From the NCBI GenBank assembly GCA_030147755.1, contig JASBUW010000081.1:1-58451 (forward strand): 58,451 bases of DNA. Direction: 5' to 3'. The position numbers were made by a program, and so were the translations under genes. The notes under the pieces are model-generated. The model did no database searches. It worked only from the letters and a program-made list of their open reading frames with translations, and was not told the DNA's origin. Positions 1 through 47,330 of the stretch are shown piece by piece. Positions within the stretch are counted from its first letter, which is position 1, and every line of letters starts with the position of its first letter. Source of the DNA: Parachlamydiaceae bacterium (GTDB lineage: Bacteria > Chlamydiota > Chlamydiia > Chlamydiales > Parachlamydiaceae).

Positions 1-107
1 GATTCAACGATCGCAAATGGGTCCATATCGCATTGATATTGACCCATTTGCGATCGTTGAATCCCGAGGTTTTGACGCGCTCAAATATGACGTTATTTTC
101 TGGAAAT
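1..107. repeat. Chimeric hairpin repeat, copy A (left side cut by window edge)
   Basis: Bases 1-23 and 41-63 are a perfect 23-bp inverted repeat; a further 5 bp (25-29/35-39) pair after one mismatch, leaving a 5-base tip. Bases 56-78 then carry the right-arm core of the repeat family (TTGAATCCCGAGG followed by TTTTGACGC), which recurs at 47070-47091 and 47230-47252. The inner arm (CGATCGCAAATGGGT) closely resembles the tip of the copy at 47123-47289. Bases 79-107 would be the outer arm, whose partner lies outside the window. The element abuts the point where the transposase reading frame is destroyed. Confidence 0.75.
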
Positions 108-623
108 GGTATCACTAAGGATATAGTCAAACTTTATCTGATTGATGACAGCTTGTGCGATAAGCAACCCAAATCTTTCATTCTTAGTTATAGATGATTT
201 TCTTTTCTCTTTTTTTGTTTTAAGATCACAAAAGTATTGGTCTTTGGAAATAATGTCATAGCCAATAGGAAAAGCAATATCATGATACCGAACCAAGCAT
301 GACAAAAGATTGATACCTTTCACACATCTTCCTTGAGCATGTGAAAAATGCCAACAAACAATTTCATTTTCATCTGTATAAGGTTTTTCTTCTATTGAAT
401 CATCTATAATTAAAACACCTCCTTTTTCTTCTTGATGACGATGAATTTCAGGTTTGATGTGTTGCCATAAATCTTTTGAATTAAATTGGTTGTTATTGAG
501 AAATCTAGTGATTTTATCGTGACTAATTCGGCCATCTAAAAGAGATGAAAGTCCTGTTGCTGTTGCATACTGATTTTGACTGATTAGGTAATCAGTGTAG
601 ATATCAAGAAGATCGTGAGACAT
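93..623 (-). pseudogene. Truncated DDE transposase (N-terminal part)
   Basis: The 176 codons read as the first part of a DDE transposase of the IS4/IS701-like superfamily. The stretch VLIIDDSIEEKPYTDENE carries the expected first catalytic Asp, followed by VCWHFSHAQGRCVKGINLL. The frame ends with FDYILSDT and then ISRK-stop. Intact relatives usually continue after that point with a W-F motif, so the frame leaves homologous sequence near base 107, exactly where hairpin copy A begins. The rest of the transposase, including later catalytic residues, is absent. The start ATG (621-623) has a strong GGAGG site that is locked in a hairpin. The family assignment is from memory of motifs and not certain. 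Confidence 0.75.
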
Positions 624-700: not shown

Positions 701-714
701 CTAATATTAGGGTG

Positions 715-747
715 TTTGCGATCGTTTAATCGCGGGAGCTTTCACAC
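715..747. repeat. Half copy (D) of the chimeric hairpin core
   Basis: This stretch (TTTGCGATCGTTTAA then TCGCGGGAGCTTTCAC) is the reverse complement of the left arm of the family seen at 47161-47184, including the inner GCGATCG arm shared with copy A. Its partner arm is missing, so only half of a hairpin remains just outside the insertion-sequence end. Confidence 0.6.
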
Positions 748-783
748 ATCAAAAAAACCGATTTTTGAAGTTGTTTGTGTATA
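743..783. repeat. Small A-tract hairpin
   Basis: An imperfect hairpin with the pattern ACATCAAAAA-ACCGA-TTTTTGAAGTTGT. It resembles the perfect hairpin at 8523-8570 and a degenerate one near 26417-26449, so it may belong to a small repeat family. It lies just upstream of the unknown gene at 878 and could end transcription coming from the left. Confidence 0.4.
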
Positions 784-46703: not shown

Positions 46704-46711
46704 CGTTTACC

Positions 46712-46785
46712 TTTTGTTAATCTGTCCTTATATGAAGGAAAGATTTAAAGAAATGTTTCCTTCATATAAGGACAGATTAACAAAA
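46712..46785. promoter_or_regulatory. Perfect 30-bp inverted repeat before ATPase 3
   Basis: 46712-46741 and 46756-46785 are perfectly complementary over 30 bp with a 14-base loop. Each arm contains TCCTT-N5-AAGGA, itself a small palindrome, so the leader carries two operator-like sites in opposite orientation. It lies 8 bases before the start codon and would form a strong hairpin in the mRNA leader. Confidence 0.75.
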
Positions 46786-46958
46786 AGCAAGCCTTAAATC
46801 AAGGAAGACAAGTGACTTATTCTTTCTATTCTTATCACTTGAATTCCTGTTCTTAGGGTGAACGGGCTCGCAAGTGGGCGGATAAGAAAGATTTATTGAT
46901 TGTTAAATTTTTCTAATGAAAACTGTTCAAAATGCTAGGATAATTTAAATTCGTGGGT
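46786..46958. other. Gene-free stretch
   Basis: About 170 bases between the ATPase 3 leader and the hairpin array. No convincing reading frame. A weak hairpin with AGAAAGATTTA/TAAATTTTTCT arms (about 46886-46920) resembles the inverted repeat at 23107-23167. The GC-rich GGGTGAACGGGCTCGCAAGT is unlike its surroundings but I cannot identify it. Confidence 0.5.
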
Positions 46959-47128
46959 TATATACTCAATCCAGTTGAATCCTGGAAATTTTGGGTAGCG
47001 TGAAAGCTCCCGCGATTGAACAAATCGCGTCGAGGATCATATTAATCAATATGACCCTCGACGCGATTTTTCAATCCCGGGGCTTTGACGCACCCAAAAT
47101 TCCAGGATTCAGCTGGATTGAGTATATA
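46959..47128. repeat. Chimeric hairpin repeat, copy B
   Basis: A 170-bp palindrome from TATATACTCAATCC to GGATTGAGTATATA. The outer arms (ACTCAATCCAGTTGAATCC...) pair with 47091-47128. The conserved core follows, left arm GCGTGAAAGCTCCCGCGATT (46998) and right arm TCAATCCCGGGGCTTTGACG (47071). The inner arm AATCGCGTCGAGG-TCATATT ends in loop AATC at 47044. The core arms show fixed mismatches. An ORF within is palindrome-derived and not a gene. Confidence 0.85.
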
Positions 47129-47289
47129 GTCTTTCTACTTCAAAGTGAGAATTTTGAGCTGCGTGAAAGCTCTCGCGGTTAAACGATCGGAAATGGGTTC
47201 ATATTACTAATATGGACCCATTTCCGATCGTTTAACCCCGAGGCTTTGACGCGCTCAAAATTCTCACTTTGAAGTAGAAAGACTATATA
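47123..47289. repeat. Chimeric hairpin repeat, copy C
   Basis: A 167-bp palindrome from TATATAGTCTTTCTACTTC to GAAGTAGAAAGACTATATA, sharing TATATA with copy B. Outer arms are unrelated to those of copy B. The core is GCGTGAAAGCTCTCGCGGTT (47161) and TTTAACCCCGAGGCTTTGAC (47231). The inner arm AACGATCGGAAATGGGT resembles copy A. It stands directly before the exporter operon at 47331. Confidence 0.85.
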
Positions 47290-47330
47290 CAAGTTTGAAT
47301 TTTCTTCATGCATAGTAATTGAGAACATAT

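Follow-up and report, generated by a model that had tools for sequence, protein, structure and literature searches.

The window, the whole stretch of 58,451 nucleotides analysed here, is one entire contig (C152) of the 3.46-Mb draft genome of a Parachlamydiaceae bacterium. Flanked by a divergently oriented AAA_14/DUF4143 gene on one side and an HlyD-family gene on the other lie two adjacent palindromic elements, B and C (Table 1). The initial annotation, made from the sequence alone, had described them as near-perfect palindromes of about 168 bp that share a core and carry outer arms that pair with themselves. This description was borne out: the coordinates and the palindromy were confirmed, both elements carry the conserved core (GCGTGAAAGCTC.CGCG on the left and CCCG.GGCTTTGACGC on the right), and the outer arms, 36–38 bp long, are self-complementary to the extent given in Table 1. 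The TATATA at the junction is common to both palindromes, which overlap there. Copies of B with the same ends were found on contigs C90, C158 and C12, and C has a 96% copy on C150. Another palindrome (TTTTGTTAATCTGTCCTTATATGAAGGAAA..), without the core, lies by the start of the AAA_14/DUF4143 gene and is probably another small repeat.

Two more elements of the same kind lie near the window start. Copy A, incomplete because the contig starts within it, adjoins the 3′ portion of a transposase ORF that is itself truncated. This DDE_5 gene is bounded on one side by copy A and on the other by a half D-type element, which stops at its own tip, at the insertion sequence (IS) that carries the gene. 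As this IS is single-copy, its insertion at the D-type tip is likely, short of proof. On contig C192 (L023/L103, C192:21413-22221), a B-type half element has a different IS (start GAACTCTTGCATAACC) at its hairpin tip; that IS also occurs elsewhere without the half element, and we therefore take it to have inserted at the tip. These half elements beside transposases, at 701-783 with DDE_5 and on C192, were considered as autonomous parents of the family and rejected. On contig C99 copy A leads into other sequence (aspartyl-tRNA synthetase), which makes it likely that A copies have recombined, or that a deletion has occurred between them, at the window start.

Table 1. Coordinates of the palindromic elements and neighbouring features (window positions unless a locus is named).
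Feature	Position	Strand	Remarks
Copy A, cut by contig start	1..112	.	one of about 20 near-identical copies
DDE_5 transposase gene, truncated	93..623	-	
Half D-type element	701..783	.	TIR TATACACAAACAACTTCAAAAATCGG.., core, inner arm
Palindrome without core	46711..46786		TTTTGTTAATCTGTCCTTATATGAAGGAAA..; probably another small repeat
Element B, complete palindromic MITE, 170 bp	46959..47128	.	IS630-type ends TATATACTC..GAGTATATA
B left outer arm (putative TIR)	46959..46996	+	92% complementary to B right arm
B left core	46998..47014	+	GCGTGAAAGCTCCCGCG
B inner arms and tip	47015..47075	.	arms 47022-47043 / 47048-47069, 95% complementary
B right core	47076..47091	+	CCCGGGGCTTTGACGC
B right outer arm (putative TIR)	47093..47128	+	
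Element C, complete palindromic MITE, 169 bp	47122..47290	.	ends TATATAGTC..GACTATATA
C left outer arm (putative TIR)	47122..47159	+	100% complementary to C right arm over 38 nt
C left core	47161..47177	+	GCGTGAAAGCTCTCGCG
C inner arms and tip	47178..47236	.	CATATTACTAATATG; 94% complementary; similar to copy A
C right core	47237..47252	+	CCCGAGGCTTTGACGC
C right outer arm (putative TIR)	47253..47290	+	
Second-interior copies	L075:1374-1542; L141:~2616; L149:~7351		

B and C had also been said to share only their TATATA ends and the core, with both outer and inner arms unrelated. The comparison of the arms contradicts this. The outer arms have 25 identities of 38–39, a score equalled by none of 5,000 shuffles (p 0.04 when the shared ends are stripped), and the inner arms are identical at 19/30 positions (p 0.002). 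A third copy, C′ (L006, contig C183; TATATACCCATTCCACTTCAAAGCTGGAATTTTGAGC), is intermediate, with outer arms identical at 29/39 positions to B and 30/38 to C, each with 0/5,000 shuffles as good. On the basis of these identities and the intermediate copy, the arms of B and C are diverged relatives. The likeness of the inner arm of C to that of copy A, also proposed at the outset, stood (23 identities of 29–30; 0/5,000 shuffles as good).

Further kinds of element in the same genome are A, C′ and D, and the architecture of B and C recurs there at least 20 times, far more often than chance would give. The A type numbers about 20 copies, many of them at contig ends, and their near-identity indicates recent mobility. 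Matches to the family were found in 21 of 50 related genomes, and a scan of 84,980 species for the core pattern returned at least 102 contig stretches, nearly all labelled Chlamydiae (Parachlamydiales, Rhabdochlamydia and Protochlamydia among the matches listed), which makes an environmental chlamydia the most likely host. Most of these data are fragmented MAGs. Elements also occur in MAGs labelled as Acidobacteria (L186, CAJCHM010000041.1) and Verrucomicrobia (L161, SZAS-4), which are either mislabelled or contaminated bins or instances of transfer outside Chlamydiae. In Rfam, no match reached the gathering score; long palindromes yield spurious microRNA matches.

Members of the family share a layout of a 33–40-bp outer arm, a conserved asymmetric core and a semi-conserved inner arm. 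Their length is almost constant (mode 164 bp among 127 distinct elements), and so is the arm length up to the core, mostly 39–42 bp. The core is the most conserved part, keeping specific mismatches in an otherwise well-paired stem, and 110 of 114 elements combine the left allele GAAAGCTCYCGCG with the right allele CAAAGCCYCGGG, or close variants of these. An outer arm matches its own partner at 91%, compared with a median of 62% for arms of other elements (shuffle mean 56%), and many outer arms follow a loose TATACCCAAA...AAAATTGG...TTTGGGC pattern.

Several matches indicate that the outer arms are the ends (TIRs) of ISs. Arms beginning TATAC and CTAG match IS630-family ends, and those beginning TAACCTGAG match IS982-family ends. 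A complete IS630-family element (PF13358) in genome G012 ends in TATACCGAACGTGATTCAAAAATTGGC, with 27 bases identical to the outer arm of element L147, and genome G026 holds both a 1.2-kb IS630 bounded by CTAGTACACTGTCAAA.. and an element, L071, with the same arm. In the window's own genome, IS630 fragments on contig C174 are bounded by TATACACAAGTGAATTCAAAAATCGG, which is similar to the D arm; the same contig carries a decayed transposase with an IS982-type end (E 1e-47 to PF13612). An IS982 remnant (PF13612) in the Protochlamydia MAG G034 has the same 21 bases, TAACCTGAGTTTGGAGTTTTTT, as the elements of that genome, and this arm fits the published IS982 end consensus AC(N)6T(N)5TT (PMC7335449). 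Matches between arms and IS ends numbered 10 and 4, compared with 1 and 0 for reversed-arm controls. The left outer arm of B is a putative IS630-type TIR through its homology with the family arms that match IS630 ends.

No intact IS with the exact ends of B, C or A was found in the draft genome, and no partner IS was assigned for some arm types, including AGGAACTG.. and AGAGGGTG..; searches with the former matched only palindromes with other interiors and short hairpins. One such palindrome (L352:1501-1667) has AGGAACTG.. ends around an unrelated interior, and an IS owning such ends was not found. IS630 transposases occur in 18 of the 50 genomes and the elements in 21, and their presence is not obviously correlated. 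This weak tracking could mean that partners have been lost or come from other families.

The initial annotation proposed that one conserved core sits between non-homologous but self-complementary arms. This fails for the pair that inspired it, B and C, and holds across the family. The core and inner arm of B are 83% identical (78/94, ungapped) to those of the IS982-type elements of G034, whereas the outer arms agree at chance level (p 0.15–0.41), so that at the level of the family the modular chimerism is real. Pairs with inner arms at least 85% identical and outer arms at chance numbered 90, compared with 2 of the reverse kind; the 90 pairs are not independent, as one element may figure in several. 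A second palindromic interior (TTTGGCAAGG..GCGACCATTGCC..) was found behind several differing TATAC-type ends (Table 1) and provides a separate, independent instance of an interior whose ends vary. Genome JANWJE holds two hybrids (L176 and L193), in which the shared core is flanked by two different IS630-type arms, one on each side. The ends are thus exchangeable, since one and the same passenger is found with TIRs from two or more transposase families, IS630 (TATAC.., CTAG..) and IS982.

The target sites point the same way for relatives of B and C. Identical 5-bp repeats border six IS982-type copies in G034 (TATTA in four of them, TAATA and TAAAA in the other two). One of the six, L326, interrupts a transporter-like gene whose orthologues are uninterrupted in genomes G033 and G006; removing the element and one TATTA leaves CCC CAT TTA TTA GGG CAT GAT, which reads PHLLGHD, as does the orthologous CCC CAT CTC CTG GGC CAT GAC. 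IS630-type copies in four genes represent net inserts of 162 or 165 bp, which fit a 2-bp TA duplication and do not fit one of 0 or 4 bp. The ends of B and C would likewise duplicate TA, as their relatives do. The A-type copies (L013-L024 and L028-L056), mostly at contig ends, have TNA on both sides, which is not consistently equal and gives no clean duplication; the fragmented assembly breaks at these copies.

We consider it probable that the elements are MITEs with TIRs mobilized in trans, a conserved passenger hairpin and exchangeable ends. The outer arm would be the TIR on which a transposase supplied in trans acts, the core and inner arms would be the passenger hairpin, and the elements in the window would have IS630-type ends that duplicate a TA. 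As for the route of exchange, to which we give slightly less than an even chance, we infer that recombination in the core between differently ended resident elements yields hybrids, in which one arm is then copied onto the other by fold-back repair or template switching. The hybrid stage is represented by L176 and L193, and the symmetrizing step would follow from it. A more speculative extension, possible and on balance rather doubtful, is that the core and inner arms form a selfish hairpin module, which would capture the ends of whichever host transposase is active (IS630 TATAC, IS630 CTAG, IS982 or others) by core recombination and arm copying, its core being kept as a harmless peptide in genes.

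The alternative that survives best invokes no swapping: each lineage would have one homologous palindrome whose arms drift quickly while complementarity is kept for matching TIRs. The graded series of B, C′ and C, the loose arm pattern common to many arms and the constant arm length all agree with such drift. We nevertheless regard it as unlikely for the family, because the IS982-type arms match another transposase family and go with 5-bp rather than 2-bp duplications, because core and inner arm remain 83% identical despite such arms, and because hybrids exist.

The initial annotation had itself offered two explanations. One, in which the core hairpin enters hairpins that are already present, at their tips, we find very improbable. 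Core-less outer hairpins do exist in numbers (at least nine 50-bp D copies, B forms in L097, L098 and L006, and an A form in L100), two ISs sit at or beside the tips of B and D elements, and the single copies L206 and L178 have palindromic flanks. Yet the short hairpins have their junctions at short direct repeats within the arms (CTGGAA, TTTTTGA), and they are best read as deletions between such repeats of the long form. The flanks of 109 elements are not enriched for palindromes (one with at least eight matches compared with 1.08 expected from shuffled pairs), and free core hairpins that lack outer arms were met only at contig ends. Where a hairpin lacking the core was expected at an empty site, the element-free orthologous site of L326 has none. 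Growth of the arms by inverted duplication, the other explanation, was not supported, since the arms are of nearly constant length. Since the 50-bp form is multi-copy, outer arms appear to suffice for mobility, as expected of TIRs. That the core is the recognition site of a single-strand (HUH or tyrosine) transposase, in the manner of REP sequences and RAYT, and the outer arms mere spacers would suit the strong conservation of the core and its retained stem mismatches, but is hardly credible given the 2- and 5-bp target duplications, the identity of the TIRs with those of DDE-type ISs and the multi-copy core-less short elements.

Elements of this kind also reside inside protein genes. The frame VKAPG...PRELSR is open from end to end in 20 of 84 element clusters, compared with an expectation of 5.8 derived from palindrome-preserving shuffles (p about 1e-6 with relatedness ignored); apart from one weaker exception, the remaining frames lie close to what is expected. 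An ORF runs through 9 of 126 copies with flanks, the hosts including MurE, a type III pantothenate kinase (CoaX-type), RecC and NagZ, and the profile matches of MurE and NagZ are split at the insert. The copy L181 precedes a HemN domain and may lie outside the true gene. The B, C and D copies of the window's own genome are not open in this frame. Elements with an open core frame can persist in genes as in-frame inserts of 54–55 codons, and part of the conservation of the core may reflect tolerance inside genes.

The family is one of non-autonomous transposons (MITEs) spread through environmental Chlamydiae. Its members are short (about 164 bp), too small for a transposase gene, and dispersed in multiple copies; TIRs matching an autonomous element were found for the IS630- and IS982-ended members, with B and C linked to such ends only by way of arms related to theirs; target duplications are of 5 bp (six IS982-type copies and the empty site) or TA (four gene-borne IS630-type copies). 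As neither an empty site nor an intact partner with exact ends was found for B and C, their own membership rests on these relatives. Bacterial MITEs that target TA and are of IS630 type (Correia/NEMIS, ERIC and RUP) have TIRs, give hairpin transcripts and are often intergenic. The chlamydial elements resemble them in these features and in size (100–170 bp), TA termini and the lack of a transposase gene, and differ in having a core better conserved than the TIRs and in that one interior carries either IS630 or IS982 TIRs. REP/REPIN sequences with their RAYT are short hairpins tagged with GTAG or CGTC that make no target duplication. Repeated palindromes and a conserved asymmetric motif are common to both groups, whereas the chlamydial family has target duplications, an empty site and DDE-type TIRs, and neither GTAG nor CGTC is present as an end tag in its conserved core.

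Rickettsia palindromic elements (RPE) and Wolbachia palindromic repeats are described as palindromes of about 105–150 bp with an open frame that reside, in frame, in conserved enzymes of bacteria with an obligate intracellular life (PMC10969869, PMC2229807). The nine gene-borne copies among the 126 chlamydial ones behave like RPE, as palindromes residing in frame in protein genes. The phylum is different and the sequence presumably so, and the chlamydial family has TIRs, target duplications and candidate partner transposases, whereas the target duplication of RPE is listed as unknown in a review (PMC2229807); no Rickettsia-labelled match was among those listed from the exact-core scan of 84,980 species. 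QMITEs of Coxiella share with the family that they are MITEs of an intracellular bacterium, with truncated forms and with ISs that use them as targets, and the part of the source that covers them describes no end-swapping (PMC10969869).

The initial statement that no named element behaves in this way was too broad, MITEs and RPE being close, and stands for one feature: in the open-licence papers searched we came across neither a description of conserved cores that change their TIRs nor a chlamydial element like the B/C family. What is unusual about the family is that ends are exchanged between transposase families while the passenger stays conserved. MITEs are usually viewed as products of internal deletion, each bound to a single parent IS. 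If true, a passenger hairpin able to change its transposase family would break this one-parent rule, and the changing of ends would explain how such elements outlive their partner transposases. The family also supplies features that seem to be missing for RPE, by combining palindromes in essential genes with TIRs, partner transposases, duplications and an empty site, and the in-frame insertion of palindromes thereby becomes testable.
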